From positions 2,170,001 through 2,234,000 of the forward strand of contig NZ_CP082164.1 of NCBI RefSeq assembly GCF_023101685.1: a DNA stretch of 64,000 bases, given 5' to 3'. Origin of the DNA: Bradyrhizobium sp. 186 (GTDB lineage: Bacteria > Pseudomonadota > Alphaproteobacteria > Rhizobiales > Xanthobacteraceae). The position numbers and the translations under genes are program-made. Below the pieces are notes generated by a model, which was given only the letters and a program-made list of their open reading frames with translations, ran no database searches and was not told where the DNA came from. Positions 494-10,849 of this stretch are shown here, in pieces; position 1 is the stretch's first letter; every line of letters starts with the position of its first letter.

Positions 494-2773
494 ATGGATT
501 CGATCGTGCAACCCGCCGCCACGGAGCAGCCGTCCACGTCACGCAACCGGCTGCTGCTGACGGTCTATACGGCTGCGATTTTCGTCAGCGCGCTGCTGCT
601 GTTCTCTGTGCAGCCGCTGTTCACGAAAATGGTGCTGCCGCGGCTCGGCGGCTCGCCGGCGGTGTGGTCGGTGGCGATGGTGTTCTTCCAGTCGCTGCTG
701 CTCGCGGGCTATGCCTATGCGCATCTGCTGATGCAGATCAAAAATCGAGTCGTTCCCGTCGTGGTGCATCTGGTGCTGCTGATCGCCGCCTTCGCCACGC
801 TGCCGCTCGGCATCGCCGGGGCGTATGGCGAGCCGCCCGCTTCGGGCTATGCGTTCTGGCTGCTCGGCCTGTTCGTGGTCTCGATTGGCCTGCCGTTCTT
901 CGCGCTGGCTGCCAACAATCCGCTGCTGCAAGCCTGGTTCGTCCGCACCGGCCATCCGGCCGGGCACGATCCCTACTTCCTCTATGCCTCCTCCAACATC
1001 GGCAGTTTCCTTGCGCTTTTGTCCTACCCGTTCCTGCTGGAGCCGATGTTCACGCTACACACGCAGAACCGGTTCTGGACCGGCGGCTACGGCGTCTTGA
1101 TCCTCCTGATCGCCGCCTGCGGCGCGCTGCTGCTGCGCTCACCGGCGCAAGCCTCTGTCATCACCCAGGCAGATGATCCGAATGCGCCGGCGCCCGGCCT
1201 GGTGACACGGCTGCGCTGGATCTTCCTCGCCGCGGTTCCCTCGGGCCTTCTCATCGCCGTGACCGCGCACATCTCCACCGACGTGGCGGCGGCACCGCTT
1301 CTGTGGGTGTTGCCGCTGTCGCTGTATTTGTTGACCTGGGTGGTGGTGTTCCAGTCGCGGCCGCTGTTGCCGCACAAATGGATGCTGATGCTCCAGCCGG
1401 TCGCGATCGCGGGCGTCATCTTCCTGCTCGCCTTCGGCGGCGAGCAGAATTTGCTGCTGACGCTCGGCGGTCATCAATTGTGCTTCTTCGTCATCGCCAT
1501 GGCCTGCCATGGCGAACTGGCGCGGACGCGGCCGCCCGCAAAATATCTCACCGGCTTCTATGTCGCGCTGTCGTTCGGCGGCATGGTCGGCGGCCTGTTC
1601 GCAGGACTTGTTGCGCCGTTCACCTTCTCCTGGATCGCCGAATATCCGATACTGGTCGCGCTCGCCGCGCTGTGCCGGCCCTCGGTGAACGAGCGCTTCG
1701 CTGGTCTCGTCAAATGGTATTGGCTGGTGCTCGCCGCGCTGGCGGTGGCGCTGGTCGTGCCGTCATACACCACGGGCAGTCTCTCGACCTGGTTCGAGGA
1801 TCACCGCGTCTGGGTCGCCGGCGCCGTCGGCGTGCTTGCAGCGCTTCTGGCGCTCGCGCTCAATGCCGGCCGCTGGAAGATCTTTGCCACCGTCGCGCTC
1901 GCGCTGGCGTTGATCCGGATCTATCCGGCGGACGAGGGCCGCGTCATGACCGTGCGCAGCTTCTTCGGCGTGCACAAGATCGTGGTGACACCCGGTGGCT
2001 ATTTCCATGTGCTGATGCACGGCACCACGATTCACGGTGCCGAGCGCTTCCGCAACAATGACGGCACGCCGGTCCTCGGCCGGCCGGAGCCGATCACCTA
2101 CTACCACAAGGACGGCGGCATCGGTCAGGCCGTCACCGCGATCCGCGAGCGCAAGGGTGCGCCGCTGAAAGTCGCCGCGATCGGCGTCGGATCGGGCACG
2201 CTCGCCTGCGCCGCCGAGCCCGGCGAGAGCTGGAAGTTCTTCGAGATCGACCAGTCCATGGTCGACGCCGCGCGCGATCCCAAGAATTTCCGTTACATCT
2301 CGAGTTGCGCGCCCGACCTGAAGCCGGTGATCGGCGACGCGCGTCTCACCTTTGCGAAGGAACCGGACGGCGCCTACGATCTCATCATCGTCGACGCCTA
2401 TTCGTCGGATGCGATCCCGATCCATCTGGCGACCGAAGAGGCGATGAAGATCTACAAGGACAAGCTCGCCCCGCACGGCGCCGTCGTGATGCACGTCTCC
2501 AACCGGCATCTCGATCTCGAGCCCGTGGTGGTCGGCATTGCGGATGCCAACGATCTCAAGAGCTGGGTCTACAACGAGGATTCGGGCCGCGACGCCGATT
2601 ACATCTTCTCCACCGACGTCGTCATCTCCGCGCGTGACGCGGCCGACGTCGGCAAGCTCGCGTCCTCCAAGCAGTGGGAGGAGACCGAAGCCGACGACAC
2701 GGTGCGGGTCTGGACCGACGACTATTCCAACATCCTCGGCGCGCTCTACCGGCGTCTGAAGGACGGGGAGTAG
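494..2773 (+). CDS. Membrane protein fused to a spermidine synthase-like domain
   Basis: 759 residues. The first roughly 470 residues are strongly hydrophobic with many membrane spans, such as VYTAAIFVSALLLFSVQPLF near residue 25. The C-terminal ~250 residues form a spermidine-synthase/methyltransferase-like domain: glycine-rich IGVGSGTLAC with the acidic FEIDQSMVDAARD after it, then VDAYSSDAIPIH. This 'fused spermidine synthase' architecture is common in proteobacteria, but its substrate is unestablished. A true polyamine role is uncertain because it stands alone with no AdoMet decarboxylase nearby. The ATG at 494 gives a plausible short cytoplasmic head. The stop codon lies in a 15-bp tandem duplication (2771-2800). 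Confidence 0.85.
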   Translation: MDSIVQPAATEQPSTSRNRLLLTVYTAAIFVSALLLFSVQPLFTKMVLPRLGGSPAVWSVAMVFFQSLLLAGYAYAHLLMQIKNRVVPVVVHLVLLIAAFATLPLGIAGAYGEPPASGYAFWLLGLFVVSIGLPFFALAANNPLLQAWFVRTGHPAGHDPYFLYASSNIGSFLALLSYPFLLEPMFTLHTQNRFWTGGYGVLILLIAACGALLLRSPAQASVITQADDPNAPAPGLVTRLRWIFLAAVPSGLLIAVTAHISTDVAAAPLLWVLPLSLYLLTWVVVFQSRPLLPHKWMLMLQPVAIAGVIFLLAFGGEQNLLLTLGGHQLCFFVIAMACHGELARTRPPAKYLTGFYVALSFGGMVGGLFAGLVAPFTFSWIAEYPILVALAALCRPSVNERFAGLVKWYWLVLAALAVALVVPSYTTGSLSTWFEDHRVWVAGAVGVLAALLALALNAGRWKIFATVALALALIRIYPADEGRVMTVRSFFGVHKIVVTPGGYFHVLMHGTTIHGAERFRNNDGTPVLGRPEPITYYHKDGGIGQAVTAIRERKGAPLKVAAIGVGSGTLACAAEPGESWKFFEIDQSMVDAARDPKNFRYISSCAPDLKPVIGDARLTFAKEPDGAYDLIIVDAYSSDAIPIHLATEEAMKIYKDKLAPHGAVVMHVSNRHLDLEPVVVGIADANDLKSWVYNEDSGRDADYIFSTDVVISARDAADVGKLASSKQWEETEADDTVRVWTDDYSNILGALYRRLKDGE

Positions 2774-2911: not shown

Positions 2912-3951
2912 CTACGGCTCGACCGGCGTCCCCGCGGGCAACGCAATCCCCTTCTCGCCGGCGACCTGCCGCAACAGGTCCGGGAGGTCGGAGATGATGC
3001 CGTCGACGCCGGTCTCGATCATGCGCGCCATGTCCTCGGGCTTGTGACCGTCCACACCACGACGCGCAGTCCGAGCGCATGGGCCTCCGAGACGAGCGCA
3101 GCGGTCACATCGCCGAAATAGGGCGACCAGATCGCGCCGCCCGCGGCCTTGATCGTCTGCGGCAGCGAGCCGCCGTGATCGGCGGGGCTGAAGCCCGCGG
3201 TCCAGTTGCTGGCCTTGTCGAGCACGACGGTCGGCGCCGAACCGCGCTGGAGCGTCAGGTACACGGTCGGAATCTTCGGTGCCTGCTGCTGCACGAGCAG
3301 CAGGGTCCGCCAGTCGAACGACTGGATCATGACGCGGCCGGAAACTCCCTCGGCCTCGATCACCCCGAGCAGCTTCGTGACGAAGGTCTGCGGGTCGAGG
3401 GTCTCATCCGGGTGGTTCGGATCGATCTTGGTCTCGATGTTGAAACGCATGCGGCTGTTGCCGGACTTGCGCACCAGTGCGAACACCTCGCGCAAGGTGG
3501 GAATGCGTGTCCCCGGCACGGCGCGCTGATCAGGGAATTGTTTTGTATAGGCGCTGTCCGGCCGGATCTGGCCGACATCGTATGTCCTGACCTCGGCGAA
3601 CGGCAATTTCACGAAGGGTGTGCCGGGCGGAGCGACGTAGGCGCCGGTCGCATCCCGTGCGAGATCGGGATTGAGCCCGCGCTCATGCGACACGACGACC
3701 TCGCCATCGGCGGTCACGCCGACGTCGAGCTCCAGCGTGTCAACGCCCATTGACAGCGCATTCGCGAACGCCGGCAGCGTGTTCTCTGGCAACAGCGCCC
3801 GCCCGCCGCGATGCGCCTCGAGATCGAAAGTCGAATCAATAGCCATCGCTCGTCCGGCAATGAGAACCGAGATCACAGTCAAAATTGTCGCAGCACGTGA
3901 TGGCATGGCGGCTCGGAGGGCAAGCGAAAAAGGGCGGCATTTTGAACGCAT
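2912..3951 (-). pseudogene. Glycerophosphodiester phosphodiesterase, C-terminal frameshift
   Basis: Family features are clear: an N-terminal signal peptide (the better start is ATG 3904-3906, giving MPSRAATILTV...), LEAHRGGRALLPENTLPAF (the GDPD HRG and ENT motif), TLELDVGVTADGEVVVSHE (ExD and the H), then FNIETKID. The open frame ends early at 3019 after VVVWTV. Dropping into the next frame at about 3044-3048 continues the family's usual ending (kPEDMARMIETGVDGIISD) and stops at TAG 2912-2914. One A appears missing in the coding sense, where GTCACAAGCCC stands for an expected GTCAACAAGCCC. The lost tail includes the conserved final GxDGIISD strand of the TIM barrel, so the unshifted product is probably inactive. 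The predicted role is periplasmic hydrolysis of glycerophosphodiesters. A sequencing error is possible. Confidence 0.8.
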
Positions 3952-4067
3952 TTTGGCACGTCCGACCCATTCTACAGGCTTTCGCGGCTGTTGAAACCTT
4001 GGGCGGCGGCTTGGGTTGCGCTCGCGCGGCGGTTATGTACTCATAGCCGCCGCCCTGGAATCCGACC

Positions 4068-5027
4068 GTGCAACAGAAACGCGATCACCGCATCATCCGC
4101 AGCCGGCATTTTCACCGGATGCAACGGCGGCATTTCATCATCTTTGACGTGCTGCCCTTCGCCGGCACATTGATGGCACTAGGCCTGTTGTTCTACCGCC
4201 CGATCGGTGTGACGGAACTCGGCCTGTTGTTCGGCTTCTGGCTGATCACCGGCCTCGGCCTCACCGTCGGCTATCACCGCCTGTTCACTCACCGCGCATT
4301 TGCGACGTCCACTGCGATGAGCGCGATCCTGATCATCATGGGATCGATGGCCGGACGCGGTCCGATGCTGTCCTGGGCGGCGATGCACCGGCGCCACCAC
4401 GAACTGTCCGATCACGACGGCGATCTGCATTCGCCGCGGCTGCATGGCGACGGCCTGCTCGGCCGTCTGCGCGGTTTCCTGCATGCGCACCTGACCTGGA
4501 TGATCGAGCATGATTATCCCAATGTCGCACACTACGTGCGCGATCTGATGGCGAGCCGGACTTTGGTCGCGGTCAACAGCTACTACTACAGCTGGGTCGC
4601 GCTCGGCCTGTTGTTGCCGGCCGCGATCGGAGGCCTTGCCACCATGAGCCTGTGGGGCGCGCTGAGCGGCTTGCTCTGGGGCGGCATCGTCCGCATGTTC
4701 GTGGTCGAGCAGACCATGTCCGCCATCAACTCCATCATGCACACATTTGGCGCGCAGCCTTTCGTGACCCGCGACGACAACAGCCGCAATCTCGGCGTGA
4801 TGGCCTGGCTCGCCTGGGGCGAGGGCTGGCACAACAACCACCACGCCTTCCCATATTCCGCGGCCTTCGGGCTGCGCTGGTTCGAGTTCGATCCCGGCTT
4901 CATCTTCATCCGCACGCTGGAGGCGCTCGGACTGGCCTGGGACGTCAAGGTGCCCAGCGAAGAGAAGATCGCCCGGCGCATGCTGCGGCAGCCGGGCGAT
5001 GCCATGTCCGACCTGGAAACGGGCTGA
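4068..5027 (+). CDS. Acyl-CoA / fatty acid desaturase, first gene of the acyltransferase operon
   Basis: 319 residues from GTG 4068 (a weak start; ATG 4119 is an alternative). It has the three histidine boxes of membrane di-iron desaturases of the stearoyl-CoA delta-9 type: HRLFTH at about 70-75, HRRHH at 107-111 and HNNHH in the C-terminal third (GEGWHNNHHAFP). Hydrophobic spans sit before and between the boxes. It would introduce a cis double bond into a fatty acyl chain at the inner membrane. The MBOAT gene follows 46 bp downstream on the same strand, so it may supply or modify the acyl chain used by that system. That functional link is an inference from gene order. Confidence 0.88.
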   Translation: MQQKRDHRIIRSRHFHRMQRRHFIIFDVLPFAGTLMALGLLFYRPIGVTELGLLFGFWLITGLGLTVGYHRLFTHRAFATSTAMSAILIIMGSMAGRGPMLSWAAMHRRHHELSDHDGDLHSPRLHGDGLLGRLRGFLHAHLTWMIEHDYPNVAHYVRDLMASRTLVAVNSYYYSWVALGLLLPAAIGGLATMSLWGALSGLLWGGIVRMFVVEQTMSAINSIMHTFGAQPFVTRDDNSRNLGVMAWLAWGEGWHNNHHAFPYSAAFGLRWFEFDPGFIFIRTLEALGLAWDVKVPSEEKIARRMLRQPGDAMSDLETG

Positions 5028-5073
5028 GCGTTATCGACCGGCGCAAGGCCGGTGATGACGCGGCTTTGATCCG

Positions 5074-6456
5074 ATGCTGTTCAACGATTACCCCTTTCTC
5101 CTGGTTTTCCTGCCGGCGGCGCTGCTGATCTACCGCCTCGCCGATCCCTATCCGGGCTTGCGCATCGGCGTACAGGTCGCGCTGTCGCTTGCCTTCTACG
5201 CCTGGGGCAGCCCGTCCTTCATCCCGCTCCTGGTCGCTTCGATCGCGATCAACTGGCTCGCCTCGGTCGTCTATGGCCGCATGAAATGGTCCGGTGTGAT
5301 CACGCTGGTAATCGTGCTCGATCTCGCCGTGCTGGCGCTGTTCAAATACGCCAACTTCGGGCTCGCCAATCTCGGGCTTGTGTTCGGCACGAAGCTGCCG
5401 ACGCTCGACATCGGGCTGCCGCTCGGCATCTCTTTCTTCACCTTCCATCACGTCATGTATCTGGTCGATCTGAAGCGCGGCAAGGCGCCGCTCTATGCGC
5501 TCGACCGCTACGCGCTCTACATCGCCTTCTTCCCGCAGGCGATCGCGGGGCCCTTGGCGCGCTGGTCGGAGGTGATGCAACAGTTCGGCCGACAGGTCTA
5601 TGTGCCGGGCTGGCAGCGCCAGTTCTGCATCGCGACTTGCTTCATCGCGCTCGGCCTGTTCGAGAAGGTCGTGATCGCCGACAGCATCGCGCATCTGCTC
5701 GATCCCATCTATGCGCAGGCGGCGAGTGGACCGCTCGCGCGTGGAGACGCGTGGCTCGCCTTCTGCTTCTCCTTCCAGATCCTGTTCGATTTCTCCGGCT
5801 ATTCCGACATCGCGATCGGCCTCGGCCTGCTGTTCGGCGTGCAACTGCCCTATAATTTCAATGCGCCGCTGCGCTCGACCAATATCCAGGATTTCTGGCA
5901 GCGTTGGCACATCACTTTGATGCTGTTCCTGCGCGACTACGTGTTCTACCCGCTGGTCAATTTGCGCCTGCTGCCGCGGCGCTGGCTGCCGGTCCAGTTC
6001 TTCGGTGCGATGATGATCACGATGGCGCTGTGCGGCCTGTGGCACGGTGCAAGCTGGGCCTTTGTGCTGTGGGGCATGCTGCACGGCCTCGCATTGGTAG
6101 CCTGCGCGCTGTGGCGCCGCTACGGCCCGGATTTCCCGTCCTGGCTCGGCTGGGCACTCACCGTGCTGTTCGTGCTCGCAACCGGCGTGATCTTCCGCGC
6201 CGGATCGGTCGAGGCGGCTTGGTACGTCTTTTCCGGGCTCGTTTCGCCGCTGCCGCTCGATCGCGGACAACATCTGTGGCCGCTGATCGCGGCGCCGCTG
6301 TTCGCCTTCCTGTTGCCGGCGAGCCAGGACATCGTCGCCGTATTCACCCGCCGCCCGAATCCAGTGCTCGCGGGTGTGCTCGGCGTCGGACTGTTCGCAT
6401 TGCTGCTCCATATGGGTGGTCGGGATCTCCATGAGTTCGTCTATTTCAAGTTCTGA
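5074..6456 (+). CDS. MBOAT family O-acyltransferase (AlgI/DltB-like)
   Basis: 460 residues and polytopic, opening with the MLFNDYPFLLVFLP head typical of AlgI/PatA/DltB proteins. Family marks: LPLGISFFTFHHVMYLVD at about 115-132, FFPQAIAGPLAR at about 152-163, FSGYSDIAIGLG at 240-251, FWQRWHITL at 274-282, and GLWHGASWAFVLWGMLHG with the invariant catalytic His at 324. Known relatives move acyl groups across the inner membrane onto extracytoplasmic hydroxyls (alginate O-acetylation, D-alanylation of teichoic acid). It overlaps the next gene by 26 bp, indicating translational coupling. A ligase and carrier protein encoded tail-to-tail just downstream suggest that acyl-ACP is the donor (inference). 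Confidence 0.92.
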   Translation: MLFNDYPFLLVFLPAALLIYRLADPYPGLRIGVQVALSLAFYAWGSPSFIPLLVASIAINWLASVVYGRMKWSGVITLVIVLDLAVLALFKYANFGLANLGLVFGTKLPTLDIGLPLGISFFTFHHVMYLVDLKRGKAPLYALDRYALYIAFFPQAIAGPLARWSEVMQQFGRQVYVPGWQRQFCIATCFIALGLFEKVVIADSIAHLLDPIYAQAASGPLARGDAWLAFCFSFQILFDFSGYSDIAIGLGLLFGVQLPYNFNAPLRSTNIQDFWQRWHITLMLFLRDYVFYPLVNLRLLPRRWLPVQFFGAMMITMALCGLWHGASWAFVLWGMLHGLALVACALWRRYGPDFPSWLGWALTVLFVLATGVIFRAGSVEAAWYVFSGLVSPLPLDRGQHLWPLIAAPLFAFLLPASQDIVAVFTRRPNPVLAGVLGVGLFALLLHMGGRDLHEFVYFKF

Positions 6457-7444
6457 TACTGATCCCGGTTGGGGCCGGAGCCTGCTGGTGTGCCTGGGCA
6501 CGCTGATCGGCGCTGCAATGCTGGTGCTCGCGCTGATGGTGCTGGTCGATCCCTATGACAGCGGCAAGCTCGGACTGCTCGGCATCGACGGCGTCGATAA
6601 TCGCCTCACGCAGATCACGGCCGCGAGCCGCGCGAGAGACCTGAATTTCAACGCCGCCATCGTCGGCAACTCGACCGCGCAGATGATCGAGCCGACCGCG
6701 CTGTCGCAGGCGACGGGCCTGCACTTCGTGCAGCTTTACATGACCGGCGCAATTCCGCGTGAACAGCTCGCGGTGCTCGACTTCTTCCTGCGGAATCACA
6801 AGCAAGTGGGCGCGCTGGTGATCGCGGCCGATCCGGGCTGGTGCGTGCATGCGCGGCCGAAGGAGGAGGGCGGCGTCCCATTTTCCTATTGGCTCTATGA
6901 CGAGAGCGTCGTCACCTACGCGGTGCGGCTGATCTCCTGGCAGGCGATCGAGCAGGCCTTTCAGCGGCTGAGCATCGGGCTTGGCCGCCGGCAGCGGATG
7001 AATCCGGACGGCTTCGTCAGCTATGAGGACATCTGGCCGCCCGGCCAATTCAAAGAGGTCGGCTGGCCCAGGGATCCCGTGCCGACAACGTCCACCGAGA
7101 TGCGGGCGGCATTTCCCGAGATCGTCGCGCTGACGGATATCGTCAGGAAGTTGCCGGCCGATGTGCCGGTCGTCATCATCGTGCCGCCGACCTTTGCAGC
7201 CACGGTGCCAAAACCCGGCACGGAAACGGCGCTGGAGCGCAGCGCCTGCGATGCTGCGCTGAAGGCGGTCGTGGCCGGACGGCCGCGCAGCAACTTTGTC
7301 AACTATCGCGTCGACAACGCGCTGACCCGCGATCGCGACAATTTCGCCGATTTCATCCACTACCGCTCGAGACTCGCGGGCCTGATCGAGCAGGGGATTA
7401 TCGCGAGTCTGCGCGACGGAGCGAAGGCGCGGATCGATTTCTGA
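6431..7444 (+). CDS. Membrane-anchored SGNH-like protein (DltD/AlgX-like partner of the MBOAT enzyme)
   Basis: 337 residues from ATG 6431, inside the end of the MBOAT gene. One N-terminal membrane segment (residues ~17-39) is followed by an extracytoplasmic domain. The start of that domain carries VGNSTAQ with Ser81 in the place of the SGNH block I nucleophile. Near the C-terminus, DFIHY (Asp307, His310) matches the DxxH block V. Overall similarity to a named family is low, so the SGNH call rests on these two motifs, the size and the pairing with an MBOAT enzyme. In alginate and dlt systems such a partner (AlgJ/X, DltD) completes acyl transfer outside the membrane. By analogy it would hand the acyl group to, or take it from, a periplasmic acceptor. 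Confidence 0.7.
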   Translation: MSSSISSSDTDPGWGRSLLVCLGTLIGAAMLVLALMVLVDPYDSGKLGLLGIDGVDNRLTQITAASRARDLNFNAAIVGNSTAQMIEPTALSQATGLHFVQLYMTGAIPREQLAVLDFFLRNHKQVGALVIAADPGWCVHARPKEEGGVPFSYWLYDESVVTYAVRLISWQAIEQAFQRLSIGLGRRQRMNPDGFVSYEDIWPPGQFKEVGWPRDPVPTTSTEMRAAFPEIVALTDIVRKLPADVPVVIIVPPTFAATVPKPGTETALERSACDAALKAVVAGRPRSNFVNYRVDNALTRDRDNFADFIHYRSRLAGLIEQGIIASLRDGAKARIDF

Positions 7445-7470
7445 GCCGCGTCCGGCTCAAGCTATCCGGC

Positions 7471-9171
7471 TCAAGCTATCTCTTGGAAACTGCCGTCGAG
7501 CCAGAGCCTGCGCGCCAGCTTGCGCTGAATCTTGCCGCTCGTGGTCTTTGGCAGGCTGCCTGGACGGATCAGCGCGATGTGGCGTGCGGAGAGCTCGTGG
7601 CTGTCGGCTACGGCCTCGCGGATCTGCCCCTTGATCTCCGCGGTGTCGATCGTGCTCCTCGCGGTGCGCTCGACCTCCTGGACGATCACGAGCGTCTCTT
7701 CGCCGCTCTCATCAGGCACCGAGAACGCCGCGCCGCAGTTTTCGCGCAAGCCTTCGTCGAGCGACTGCACCGTGCACTCGATGTCCTGCGGATAATGGTT
7801 GATGCCGCGGATGATGATGAGGTCCTTGATCCGCCCGGTGACGAACAGCTCGCCGTTTTCGTCAAGGAAGCCGAGATCGCCGGTGCGCAGCCACGGGCCA
7901 TCCTCGCCGGCGATCTCGACGTTCAGCCCCTCGCGCGTTGCCTCCTCATTGCGCCAATAGGCACGAGCGACATTTGCGCCGCCGACCCAGATCTCGCCCA
8001 CGCGGTCGGTGGGTAGCCGCGCGCAATTCTCCGGCTCGACGATCGCAATTCGCTCGCCGGCAAGCGCGCGGCCGCAGCCGACCGCGATCTGCGTATCGTC
8101 GGCGTCGGGGGCCGCTTCGGCTGTATGAGCCTGAAGCCCCGCGCGGCTGACGCTGCGCGTGACGTAACCGCCGCCGCGCCCTCCGCCGGAAATCAGCAGC
8201 GTCGCTTCCGCCATGCCATAAGCCGGATACATCGCGCGTGGATTGAAACCGTGCGGCGCAAATGTCTCGATGAACTGCGCGATGGTGTCGGCACGCACCG
8301 GCTCCGCGCCGTTGAGCGCGATTTTGAGCGAGGACAGATCGACGCCGTCCATCTGATCGGCGCGATAGCGGCTGACGCAGAGGTCGAAGCCGAAATTCGG
8401 GCTGCACGCCACTTCCGCGCGATAATGCGAGATCGCGCGCAGCCAGCCGAGCGGCCGCTGCATGAACGCGTTCGGTGCCATCAGCACGCAGGTCGCACCC
8501 ACATAGAGTGCTTGCAGCGCGTTCAGGATCAGCCCCATGTCGTGATAGAGCGGCACCCAATTGACGTAGGTCGATTGCCTGGTGTTGCCGAGCGCGAGCC
8601 GGATCATCTTGAGATTGGCGAGCAAATTGGCATGGCTCACCATCACGCCCTTGGGTTCGGATGTGGAGCCGGAGGTGTATTGCAGGAAGGCGATGTCGCC
8701 CGATGCCGGCTCGGGAAGTTCGATTGTCTCACCGTCGGCCGCGGTGAGGTCGACTTCGATCCAGCGGATGTTCTCCTGCTCAAAGCGCGCCTGCAAATCG
8801 CCGCGCAAAGCCAGCGCGGAGGTGGTCAGCGCCACCGCCGGTGCGCAATTGGCGAGGATCGCGGCGCTGGCATCGCGGGCGCTGTTTCGCCGCGGCATCA
8901 TCATCGGTACGGCAATGACGCCGGCCATCAGGCAGCCGAAGAACGCGACCATGAACTCGATGCCGGGCGGGAATACCAGGACCGCGCGGTCACCGGGCCG
9001 GGCGGCCGCGGTCAGGCGCGTGGCGAGCGCGCGCGCGGCGTCGTGCAACTGGCGGAAGGTGAGGGCTGCTTCCTCCGTCCCGCGATCGGAGACGAAGACG
9101 TAGGCGCGATCCTCGCTCTGGTCCGCCGCACGCCGGGCCAGGAGTGCCACGAGCGAGCGGAAGGTTTCCAT
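7471..9171 (-). CDS. Fatty-acyl-AMP ligase (FAAL-type, AMP-binding)
   Basis: 566 residues. Adenylate-forming enzyme motifs: LQYTSGSTSEPKGV at 163-176 (P-loop), WVPLYHDMGLI at 205-215, CSPNFGFDLC at 256-265, a YGMAEATLLISG motif, GEIWVGGANVARAYW, WLRTGDLGFL and GRIKDLIIIRGINHYPQDIE, with a PKTTSGKIQR end. The HDMGLI and PNFxxDLC signatures and the length are those of FAAL enzymes. These make fatty-acyl-adenylates and load them onto a carrier protein instead of CoA. The ACP gene is 26 bp upstream on the same strand and is the obvious partner. It is convergent with the MBOAT operon (26 bp between stops). No polyketide or peptide synthase accompanies it, unlike most FAAL loci. Confidence 0.9.
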   Translation of the reverse strand: METFRSLVALLARRAADQSEDRAYVFVSDRGTEEAALTFRQLHDAARALATRLTAAARPGDRAVLVFPPGIEFMVAFFGCLMAGVIAVPMMMPRRNSARDASAAILANCAPAVALTTSALALRGDLQARFEQENIRWIEVDLTAADGETIELPEPASGDIAFLQYTSGSTSEPKGVMVSHANLLANLKMIRLALGNTRQSTYVNWVPLYHDMGLILNALQALYVGATCVLMAPNAFMQRPLGWLRAISHYRAEVACSPNFGFDLCVSRYRADQMDGVDLSSLKIALNGAEPVRADTIAQFIETFAPHGFNPRAMYPAYGMAEATLLISGGGRGGGYVTRSVSRAGLQAHTAEAAPDADDTQIAVGCGRALAGERIAIVEPENCARLPTDRVGEIWVGGANVARAYWRNEEATREGLNVEIAGEDGPWLRTGDLGFLDENGELFVTGRIKDLIIIRGINHYPQDIECTVQSLDEGLRENCGAAFSVPDESGEETLVIVQEVERTARSTIDTAEIKGQIREAVADSHELSARHIALIRPGSLPKTTSGKIQRKLARRLWLDGSFQEIA

Positions 9172-9197
9172 TTTGGTTGCGCCGGCTTCAGCCGCCC

Positions 9198-9452
9198 TCA
9201 GGCAGCGGAGGGGATGGCGCGCTTGTCGGCGAGAAATCGCGACAGCGCCTCGACGGTAGGATGGTCGTAGAAGTCGTCCGTCGATAGTTCGAGGTCGAGC
9301 TTCTCCTCGAGTTCCATCATGAGGTAGACCAGCATCGCCGAATCGAGCCCGAGACGGTTGAATTTCGTGGCGGTGTCGACCCGGTCCCTCGAGATTCGCA
9401 GGATATTTGCCAGGGCGGTAACGCAGAAATCCGAAATCTGCTCGCGTGTCAT
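9198..9452 (-). CDS. Acyl carrier protein, partner of the FAAL
   Basis: 84 residues from ATG 9450-9452 (a longer in-frame start at 9506 lacks a good ribosome site). The phosphopantetheine site is GLDSAM, with Ser38 as the attachment point, followed by a helix II rich in E/L and a C-terminal DDFYDHPTVEALSRFL typical of PKS/Dlt-type carriers. Gene order ACP then FAAL suggests one operon in which the ligase loads fatty acid onto this ACP. With the MBOAT and SGNH-like genes next door, it would fill the DltC position. Confidence 0.92.
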   Translation of the reverse strand: MTREQISDFCVTALANILRISRDRVDTATKFNRLGLDSAMLVYLMMELEEKLDLELSTDDFYDHPTVEALSRFLADKRAIPSAA

Positions 9453-9745
9453 GTCATTTCCCAGAAACAATCGGAACGACAATACGGGCGACCCTACGGT
9501 TGTCAATTTGGCCAGAACGCCACAGCGTTGAAGGTTGGGGACTGTTGCTTCCCTTCGTCGGTTTGCTGCTCAATTCATGCACAGTTGCCGCGATTTCCCG
9601 AGGTCGACAGCGGCCAGCGTGGCGGCGGCGTTCGATTCGCTCGTCGCGCAAACGAATGCGGTGACCGAAACCGAACGCCAGGCGCGGGCTCCTGGCACGT
9701 AAAAGCTGGAAGATTTTGGAGCGGCAGCTCCGCGCTCAAGTCGCG

Positions 9746-10546
9746 TCAGTTCTGGTAATAGCCGCGCGGCTGATAATACTGCCGGGGCTGTTGCTGCTGA
9801 TAGTAATAGCCCTGCTGGCCATAGCCCTGGTCGTAAGTCGGCTGCGTCTGGTAGACCTGCGCGCCGTAGACGCGGTTGTTCGTGCGCGGCGCCGGATAGC
9901 GCGCGCCGGTGTCGCTGCCGTCGGCCGGATAGATGTAGCTGTCGTCCTGCGGCATGTAGCGGCGGGCGGGCTGCGCCGGTGGCGTCAGATTCACGGGGTC
10001 GCCGGCAGCGCTGTACTGCTCTTCGGCCGGCTGCGGAGCGCGGGCAACGGCATTGTTGGTGCGGCCGCGCGGATTGCGTGCGAGGGCCACCTGGGACGAG
10101 CCGGTCAGCGTCACCGTGGTGTTGAGCACGCCCTGCTGCTGCACCAGCGCGTAGAGTGTCGTGGCATTTTGGCGCGACAGCCGCACGCAGCCATGCGAGG
10201 CGGGCGAGCCGAGCCGGCCGACCGAATCCGTGCCGTGGATGGCGTGCCCGATCTTGGTGAAGAAGATCGCGTGCGGCATCGGCGCGTCGTCGAATTCCTT
10301 GGAGTAGTGATCCTCTTCCATGCGGAAGGTGCGGAACGCGCCGTTCGGCGTCTCGCGCGAGGGGATGCCGGTCGACACCGGCCAGTGATAGCGCGCGACG
10401 CCGTCGACGGCGACGGTCATCTGCTGATTGTCCTTGTCGATGGTGATCTCGACCTTGGCCTGCGCGGTGCCCGCGCTCAAAAGCATCAATGAGGTGAAAG
10501 CAATGAAAAAGGATCTCATCTGGAAACGCATTTGAGGAAAACGCAT
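9746..10546 (-). CDS. L,D-transpeptidase (YkuD domain) with a Gln/Tyr-rich tail
   Basis: 266 residues from ATG 10544-10546, chosen because GGAGGCCAGGA lies just upstream. The 5' end repeats ATGCGTTT, so two further in-frame ATGs exist. A signal peptide (FFIAFTSLMLLSAGTAQA) ends near residue 30. The YkuD domain carries IHGTDS (His104) and SHGCVRLS with catalytic Cys120. The last ~90 residues are low complexity, rich in Q, Y and P, with QQQQPRQYYQP. Such enzymes form 3-3 crosslinks in peptidoglycan or attach proteins to it in the periplasm. The tail is not part of the catalytic fold and may bind the cell wall (inference). Confidence 0.9.
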   Translation of the reverse strand: MRFPQMRFQMRSFFIAFTSLMLLSAGTAQAKVEITIDKDNQQMTVAVDGVARYHWPVSTGIPSRETPNGAFRTFRMEEDHYSKEFDDAPMPHAIFFTKIGHAIHGTDSVGRLGSPASHGCVRLSRQNATTLYALVQQQGVLNTTVTLTGSSQVALARNPRGRTNNAVARAPQPAEEQYSAAGDPVNLTPPAQPARRYMPQDDSYIYPADGSDTGARYPAPRTNNRVYGAQVYQTQPTYDQGYGQQGYYYQQQQPRQYYQPRGYYQN

Positions 10547-10849
10547 TTGAATCCTGGCCTCCGGCCTGTTCACGCAAGCGCCGCGGCTCTCCGTCCCCCG
10601 GCGTGCACTATGCCTGCAATCCGGCTTTCGTTCCAGCGGCCCGCCCGCCCATCGTTAACGTGGTGCCGGGCGTAAGCAAGGCCGCTTTGTGCCGCGCCGC
10701 CTGCGGCGGTGCTGACATTTTCGCGAGCGACCAGCGCGTTCTCGACGCCGACAATTCGTCACAAAGGCGCAACCATTTGGCCGCGCCAAGCGTTGAACAT
10801 GGCCTGCCCCGACACGCGGCTTTCGCCGCCGTTTACCTTGGGATCGAAG
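10547..10849. other. Intergenic region without recognised gene
   Basis: The 303 bp between the divergent L,D-transpeptidase and the glycine-rich secreted protein show no convincing open frame, RNA gene or repeat. It should hold both promoters, but no clear -35/-10 pair was picked out. Confidence 0.5.

Follow-up and report, generated by a model that had tools for sequence, protein, structure and literature searches.

What does a fatty-acyl-AMP ligase (FAAL) with its own acyl carrier protein (ACP) do beside a desaturase, an MBOAT acyltransferase and an SGNH-fold acyltransferase? The five open frames lie at positions 4068-9452 of the window, the 64,000-nucleotide stretch of Bradyrhizobium sp. 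186 DNA analysed here, where a previous sequence-only reading had placed them (Table 1). As that reading described, the desaturase, MBOAT and SGNH genes are arranged tail to tail with the FAAL and ACP genes. The MBOAT and SGNH frames share 26 bases, and gaps of 26 bases separate SGNH from FAAL and FAAL from ACP. The ACP frame opens at 9506, and alignment favours the ATG at 9452. We propose that the cassette probably encodes a dedicated, carrier-fed envelope acylation system, in which a fatty acid passes to ACP, to a tyrosine of the MBOAT, to a serine of the SGNH protein and to an extracytoplasmic acceptor.

Table 1. Features of the five-gene locus, in window coordinates
Feature	Position	Strand	Basis or remark
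Membrane fatty-acid desaturase, three His boxes	4068..5027	+	Upstream gene of the MBOAT operon; PF00487
MBOAT acyltransferase, DltB fold, catalytic His324	5074..6456	+	PF03062
MBOAT residues 287-303, carrier-docking segment	5932..5982	+	Alignment with 6bug; DltB contacts from PMC11035591
FVYFKF C-terminal hexapeptide, FxYxxF acyl-shuttle motif, Tyr457	6436..6453	+	End of the MBOAT
SGNH-fold acyltransferase, one N-terminal membrane helix, Ser81/Asp307/His310	6431..7444	+	
FAAL	7471..9171	-	PF00501 and PF23024; FAAL models; solved relatives
ACP, phosphopantetheine site GLDS, Ser38	9198..9452	-	PF00550

By sequence family, the ligase is a FAAL and not a D-alanine:carrier ligase. It matches PF00501 (233 bits) and PF23024 in Pfam, and its five best NCBIfam matches (402-506 bits, all under the cut-offs) come from FAAL models, apart from one NRPS/PKS model. 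The solved relatives include 7r7f, 3kxw, FadD32, FadD23 and FadD28; 'Polyketide synthase' is the name given to the top three solved entries. The best family and structure matches are FAALs and PKS-linked domains, in agreement with the FAAL hallmarks recognized earlier, and DltA is absent among the best 25 of 105 NCBIfam models and the best 60 of 212 chains. FAALs are distinguished by a characteristic insertion. The ligase has a 41-residue span after YGxAE, a length found in 32 of 34 loci, and its alignment with 7r7f crosses the insertion region with just a one-residue and a two-residue gap. At E <= 1e-20, the only match to the FAAL in its own genome is the FAAL itself. The ACP matches PF00550 (56 bits), and G[LF]DS is present in 33 of the 34 locus ACPs, the motif being unmatched in L028. 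The active-site residues named by the sequence-only reading proved invariant: His324 of the MBOAT in 34 sequences, Ser38 of the ACP in 12, and Ser81, Asp307 and His310 of the SGNH protein in 41.

The MBOAT combines features of two known machineries. It matches PF03062 (69 bits) and scores 174.5 bits against the curated DltB equivalog TIGR04091, under the cut-off of 375. Its predicted structure has the DltB fold, with PORCN, MBOAT7, LPCAT3 and HHAT as the next matches, and C-terminal helices extend past the DltB-like core. FxYxxF, an acyl-tyrosine shuttle motif reported for PatA and DltX in PMC12148441, terminates all 57 of the 57 MBOATs from 65 loci. Phe455, Tyr457 and Phe460 of this tail are invariant in 34 sequences, and residues 455-460 are modelled with pLDDT < 50. 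Among frames of at least 18 aa in 3001-10500, no DltX-like frame was found, the only FxYxxF end being that of the MBOAT itself. The fused motif and the lack of a DltX-like frame in this interval suggest that the locus joins a donor side like that of Dlt to a transfer side like that of PatA. The one-to-one correspondence with Dlt drawn by the sequence-only reading needs refinement in the shuttle, which is of the PatA/AlgI type and fused. The C-terminal motif, the extra carrier-docking segment described below and the missing DltX-like frame had all escaped that reading.

Residues 287-303 of the MBOAT align with the start of, and with, the DltC-docking helix HC of DltB. FAAL-linked MBOATs carry 4-5 additional residues at this site: the spacing is 29-30 in 34 of 34 FAAL-linked MBOATs versus 25 in 23 of 23 unlinked ones, 'unlinked' denoting no FAAL match above 200 bits in the available flank and including one locus that stops inside the SGNH gene (L077) and one with a weak ligase match of 82 bits at a distance of about 5 kb (L056). 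The model shows no helix of its own for the segment, which falls within a helix (280-295), a loop and a second helix (302-324). Of the six positions at which DltB contacts DltC (taken from PMC11035591), the window MBOAT shares only Val305 with DltB. FAAL-linked MBOATs group in a single clade (support 100/99). The extra segment and the link to the FAAL may therefore both have come from a single ancestor instead of being causally connected.

The SGNH gene had no match in Pfam, and its profile found no solved structure by sequence at E <= 1. Its product is nevertheless modelled confidently as an SGNH fold, as the sequence-only reading had predicted for this gene, with PatB among the best fold matches and a best Foldseek E-value of 1.3e-3. 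A non-SGNH prediction for this gene was one of the two refuting outcomes named by that reading, and neither outcome occurred. Six loci (L044-L049) reveal how this protein varies relative to its partners. Their SGNH proteins are only 47-52% identical to that of the window, versus 85-94% for the desaturase, 84-90% for the MBOAT, 82-87% for the FAAL and 93-98% for the ACP. The MBOAT of these loci diverges just at its C-terminal end, where residues 437-454 are 50% identical versus 90% in L023-L038. Such joint divergence of the SGNH protein and the MBOAT tail is as predicted for a matched hand-over pair.

The cassette genes show strict linkage across Bradyrhizobium genomes. Close matches to the desaturase, the MBOAT and the FAAL, the three queries of the survey, occur in an identical set of 33 of 195 Bradyrhizobium genomes (a count uncorrected for genome kinship), with desaturase identities of at least 72%, and all 33 share one gene order and one strand pattern. 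Co-occurrence of FAAL and ACP with MBOAT and SGNH in relatives had been set beforehand as a test of the proposal, and it was found in all 30 Bradyrhizobium-type loci (L023-L052), in L054 and in three Acetobacteraceae/Rhodospirillales loci (L055, L058 and L059). The latter three have a co-directional MBOAT-SGNH-ACP-FAAL order; their ACP matches are weak (39-51 bits), and the FAAL of L055 is truncated at a contig end. No desaturase match was found in these three loci. The desaturase, which matches PF00487 (79 bits) and whose three His-box patterns were found in 29, 28 and 29 of 29 loci, was observed only in Bradyrhizobium-type loci, a refinement of the sequence-only reading. The FAAL and MBOAT trees conflict at one supported pair within Bradyrhizobium. 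When the whole class was searched at E <= 1e-115, the own genome alone matched (1 of 385); among the genomes sampled, the close form is thus rare beyond the genus. SGNH matches turned up in 7 of the 149 genomes of a family sample, and two of these seven (G056 and G012), besides the own genome, have FAAL and ACP tail to tail. Close MBOAT relatives that share the signature are numerous in public sequence collections (1,681 relatives at E <= 1e-100), and among the best 120 many carry the name AlgI or DltB.

Do the two operons form one system? It is unlikely that they are merely neighbours serving two pathways, with a JamABC-type FAAL, ACP and desaturase producing a fatty acid of alkynyl or alkenyl type, and with the MBOAT and SGNH proteins acting as an acetyl-CoA-dependent O-acetyltransferase. 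JamA (FAAL), JamB (desaturase) and JamC (ACP) are a known cassette with the same three types of enzyme, and a JamA tree of 4,990 sequences exists (both from PMC8406139). The opposite strands of the operons and the MBOAT/SGNH pairs that occur without a FAAL in other Rhizobiales also agree with separate pathways. However, in the three co-directional loci FAAL and ACP accompany the MBOAT and SGNH genes without a desaturase match, and the extra carrier-site segment is confined to FAAL-linked MBOATs. Moreover, a search for ketosynthase domains found none within 1.0 Mb that could take a polyketide starter, the nearest in the own genome being at G000:C1:3196597, and in this sense the earlier remark on the absence of a nearby polyketide synthase is borne out. 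The 13 ketosynthase matches in the genome all lie in frames of 209-460 aa.

What, then, is the acceptor? A glycan is the most likely candidate. Transfer of the chain by the MBOAT and SGNH proteins onto a lipid or a protein, yielding an acylated membrane lipid or lipoprotein, appears rather unlikely. Eukaryotic MBOATs acylate proteins and lipids, and the fold matches that follow DltB belong with this reading. No neighbouring gene points to a glycan: a Pfam scan of 20 hand-picked neighbours from nine loci, 15 from the FAAL-less L053, L056, L061, L062, L064 and L077 and five from the FAAL-linked L050, L054 and L058, gave no shared glycan pathway and mostly housekeeping genes (cysS, citramalate-synthase-like, rnr, recA and dksA). 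On the other hand, the bacterial MBOAT-SGNH pairs covered by PMC12148441 modify glycans or teichoic acids, and the exchange of the SGNH protein in an otherwise similar cassette indirectly fits a variable surface polymer. It is highly improbable that the product is instead hopanoid-lipid A, in which a carboxylated hopanoid is joined to the lipid's very-long-chain fatty acid by an enzyme noted as missing for Bradyrhizobium. That enzyme had no identity in 2017 according to PMC5613085, and ORS278 has all five cassette genes. However, ORS285 lies outside the 33 FAAL-positive genomes and apparently lacks the cassette, yet its lipid A is described as bearing hopanoid like that of ORS278 (PMC6102379). 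The cassette occurs in only 33 of the 195 genomes and in 2 of 20 with a photosynthetic reaction centre. USDA110 too has hopanoid-lipid A and is also outside the 33. Lipid A, one of the acceptors listed by the sequence-only reading, is thus disfavoured in its hopanoid-bearing form. The flanking SPD and YkuD genes were rejected as parts of the system; they are still neighbours (1.0-5.8 kb) in six of six examined genomes outside the 33, and loci L050, L054, L055, L058 and L059 gave no match to any of the four flanking genes (SPD, YkuD, GDPD and ABC transporter).

The carrier-fed acylation system that we prefer resembles several known systems in part. With Dlt (DltA, DltB, DltC, DltD and DltX), it has in common a DltB-fold MBOAT with a catalytic His and a phosphopantetheine-serine carrier, but its ligase is of the FAAL family, a desaturase is added and the host is Gram-negative. 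With the PatA/PatB, AlgI/AlgJ/AlgX and WssH-type systems, it shares the C-terminal FxYxxF and helices of the MBOAT and a separate SGNH protein with Ser/Asp/His. Those O-acetylation systems are reported to use acyl-CoA without a carrier protein (PMC12148441), whereas the cassette adds a strictly linked FAAL and ACP and a longer carrier-site segment; judged by sequence, the linked FAAL and ACP argue against a carrier-free acyl-CoA donor for its MBOAT. JamABC differs in that the cassette is coupled to an MBOAT and an SGNH protein. In the Gram-negative envelope, AlmEFG glycylates lipid A using a ligase, a carrier and an acyltransferase; it moves glycine, and its transferase is not an MBOAT. A literature search, outside which most subscription papers lay, found no report of a FAAL loader combined with an MBOAT-SGNH machine. 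The parts are known, but their combination, a fatty-acid loader on this transfer machine, seems unstudied.

In the pathway that we infer, including each chemical step, the chain length, the unsaturation and the transfer direction, the FAAL would adenylate a free fatty acid and attach it to the ACP, its dedicated carrier, through the phosphopantetheine group. Where a desaturase is present, as in Bradyrhizobium, it would introduce unsaturation into the chain on ACP or earlier. The acyl-ACP would dock on the MBOAT from the cytoplasmic side, and the MBOAT, via His324, would shift the acyl group to Tyr457 of its own periplasmic C-terminal tail. From the tail, the acyl group would move to Ser81 of the SGNH protein, which is anchored in the membrane and would transfer it onto a hydroxyl of the acceptor. 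More tentatively, a JamABC-like maker (FAAL, ACP and desaturase) may supply a long desaturated, perhaps acetylenic, chain to a Dlt/PatA-like exporter, which carries it as an MBOAT acyl-tyrosine onto a variable surface glycan through an exchangeable SGNH protein; this could be an undescribed class and the first long-chain MBOAT-SGNH machine.

The bacterial MBOAT-SGNH machines described in the literature consulted transfer acetyl from CoA or D-alanine from a carrier. If our proposal is true, the cassette would show a route for the covalent export of long hydrophobic chains and a role of FAALs beyond polyketide and peptide synthesis. A ready comparison is offered by ORS278, which carries the cassette, and ORS285, which apparently lacks it. 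The proposal would also predict that plant symbionts of this major group make an as yet undescribed acylated molecule of the envelope.

The five-gene cassette of the window (G000:C1:2170001-2234000 in a 10.77-Mb genome, with Bradyrhizobium as its closest named relatives in the searches) consists of two transcriptionally convergent units. Its desaturase, MBOAT, AMP-binding ligase and carrier are all named by Pfam and NCBIfam, and by family the ligase is classed as a fatty-acyl-AMP ligase (FAAL). Its relatives of solved structure are headed by 7r7f with two variants, named 'Polyketide synthase'; 3kxw comes next, and FadD32, FadD23 and FadD28 entries follow. No second match to the FAAL was found in the genome at E <= 1e-20. 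The genome search for ketosynthases (KS) yielded none closer than 1.0 Mb to the cassette, which bears out for KS matches the earlier claim that no polyketide synthase is nearby, and all 13 KS matches fall in frames of 209-460 aa. Thus, the cassette lacks the polyketide setting in which FAALs usually occur.

Coordinates of the cassette genes (units 1 and 2 lie tail to tail) and of other features discussed
Feature	Sequence	Coordinates	Strand	Arrangement
Membrane protein	window	494-2773		
Desaturase	window	4068-5027	+	unit 1; 46-base gap to MBOAT
MBOAT	window	5074-6456	+	unit 1; 26-base overlap with SGNH
SGNH protein	window	6431-7444	+	unit 1; 26 bases to FAAL
FAAL	window	7471-9171	-	unit 2; 26 bases to ACP
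Acyl carrier protein (ACP)	window	9198-9452	-	unit 2
Second MBOAT	own genome (L022)	G000:C1:10181371-10182636		
Solute-binding protein of ABC transporter	L054 (same contig as L014)	9072-10439		between SGNH and FAAL
Distant MBOAT match	L050	12209-14641		just past cassette
Carbamoyltransferase	L056 (contig of L017)	8996-10729		directly after MBOAT/SGNH pair
Carbamoyltransferase	L060 (contig of L016)	9087-10808		directly after MBOAT/SGNH pair

Which genes accompany the FAAL across genomes? The FAAL (E <= 1e-150) is present in 33 of 195 Bradyrhizobium genomes, and MBOATs of at least 63% identity and desaturases of at least 72% occur in exactly these 33, at distances of 995-1133 bases for the MBOAT and 42-247 bases for the desaturase and with the same strand pattern throughout (33/33). 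Weaker MBOAT matches (at most 45% identity) are found in many FAAL-less genomes, any match at E <= 1e-40 being present in 149 of 195, and in seven more genomes the desaturase search gave nothing beyond a distant match (E 1e-41 to 1e-46), which brings its total to 40/195. Among 65 collected loci, 34 (L023-L052, L054, L055, L058 and L059) match MBOAT, SGNH, FAAL and ACP together, and the co-occurrence on which the sequence-only reading depended is thereby confirmed. The desaturase accompanies 29 of the 34; L038 is not countable because its contig starts just before its MBOAT, and no desaturase match was obtained in L054, L055, L058 or L059, two of which (L055 and L059) lie on short contigs. Three of these loci, L055, L058 and L059, have all four genes on one strand as MBOAT-SGNH-ACP-FAAL, an order which argues that the genes constitute one system. 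The FAAL tree, whose outgroup is very distant, and the MBOAT tree share their main groups (L055/L058/L059, L054/G056, L039/L042 and L043/L051) and conflict inside Bradyrhizobium, where L044 pairs with L046 in the MBOAT tree versus L024 in the FAAL tree, both with support. L054 retains the tail-to-tail layout around its intervening solute-binding-protein gene.

The MBOAT differs between linked and unlinked loci at the putative carrier site. In DltB, the available text of PMC11035591 lists Met302, Val305, Ile306, Met309 and Lys312 (helix HC) and Arg317 (TMH8) as DltC contacts; upon alignment with 6bug, window MBOAT residues 292-303 fall at HC, and Val305 is the only identical contact. The spacing from the RD[YF]xF motif to the catalytic LWHG is 29-30 residues in 34/34 FAAL-linked MBOATs versus 25 in 23/23 unlinked ones, "unlinked" meaning no FAAL match above 200 bits within the flank covered (the L077 contig breaks off within the SGNH gene, and in L056 a ligase match of 82 bits lies ~5 kb away). 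Among the best 120 of 1,681 proteins matching the Rhodospirillales MBOAT of L059 at E <= 1e-100, the spacing is 29-30 in all 116 readable cases, and 119 have the FxYxxF end, the exception being a fragment. In a tree built without the segment columns, all 17 FAAL-linked MBOATs included form one clade (support 100/99), and the longer segment thus counts as a single evolutionary change whose independence extends to DltB alone. The extra segment is not a separate helix in the predicted MBOAT model. The second MBOAT of the genome has the short spacing and the C-terminus FIYFRF, and the 19.5 kb covered at its locus gave no FAAL match.

The sequence-only reading had matched the cassette to Dlt part by part. 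This likeness holds for the donor side, whereas the transfer side resembles PatAB, and the cassette is not a Dlt system as judged by its ligase, the absence of a DltX-like frame in 3001-10500 and its equivalog score. The cassette differs from PatAB in its linked carrier, and other MBOAT/SGNH pathways are without such a carrier according to the available text of PMC12148441. It resembles JamABC, as far as described in the accessible part of PMC8406139, in its FAAL, desaturase and ACP. Searches of open-access papers retrieved no description of FAAL/ACP combined with MBOAT/SGNH.

Around the parts, residues and linkage observed, a chemistry can be proposed by analogy with work on PatA, DltB/DltX and FAALs. 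The FAAL would load a fatty acid onto the ACP, and the desaturase would work on the chain. The acyl-ACP would dock on the cytoplasmic face of the MBOAT, where His324 would transfer the acyl group to Tyr457 in the C-terminal FVYFKF. The MBOAT tail would then pass it to Ser81 of the SGNH enzyme, which would acylate an acceptor outside.

Hopanoid-lipid A, among the acceptors suggested earlier, was considered as the product because its last enzyme was described as unidentified in 2017 (PMC5613085, in the part available). ORS278 (G320) carries all five cassette genes, and ORS285 (G302) and USDA110 (G329) are outside the 33 FAAL-positive genomes. Yet the accessible text of PMC6102379 jointly describes the lipid A of ORS278 and ORS285 as hopanoid-bearing, and the cassette occurs in 2 of the 20 genomes that possess a photosynthetic reaction centre. 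The cassette is therefore probably not needed for hopanoid-lipid A, and this candidate is disfavoured.

A second form, in which an MBOAT/SGNH pair has no strong FAAL match, comprises 23 loci (L053, L056, L060-L067, L069-L074, L077, L081, L082 and L084-L087) from Rhizobiales and some other Proteobacteria. It shows the short carrier-site spacing, often lies beside housekeeping genes and is presumably CoA-fed. The carbamoyltransferase genes of L056 (PF02543/PF16861 by scan) and L060 (clustering with that of L056) hint that the acceptor of these pairs might also be modified in another way.

The window cassette is flanked by a gene resembling spermidine synthase (SPD) and one encoding an L,D-transpeptidase (YkuD), which are matched in 27/30 and 28/30 of loci L023-L052, respectively, with L038 and L045 being cut contigs. 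The SPD-YkuD distance is 1.0-5.8 kb in six genomes outside the 33 versus 9.9 kb in cassette-bearing ORS278, and thus the cassette looks like a block that is acquired or lost as a whole, in most cases at a single site. Neither flank is matched around the cassette in L050 (Bradyrhizobium sp. dw_78), and so the cassette sits elsewhere there or the flanks have changed. The distant second MBOAT match of L050 (169 bits) adjoins a phage-terminase-domain gene. The membrane protein at 494-2773 of the window, which weakly matches spermidine synthase, is 80-94% identical in 7/7 of the Bradyrhizobium genomes compared, whether or not they carry the cassette.

One module of the cassette may have been exchanged. 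The SGNH proteins of six loci (L044-L049) are 47-52% identical to that of the window, although their desaturase (85-94%), MBOAT (84-90%), FAAL (82-87%) and ACP (93-98%) are as close to it as those of L023-L037; the L044 SGNH shares 78-87% identity with its counterparts in L045-L049. In the same six loci, MBOAT identity is 93% at residues 301-380 (92% in L023-L038), 76% at 381-430 and 50% at 437-454, compared with 87% and 90% in L023-L038. By these alignments, L044-L049 contain a second type of SGNH gene and MBOAT tail (from ~381 on) in an otherwise 82-98% identical cassette. Since both drop in the same loci, they change together, via recombination or joint divergence. Such a joint change fits a hand-over from the tail to the SGNH enzyme and suggests that the acceptor side varies from strain to strain.
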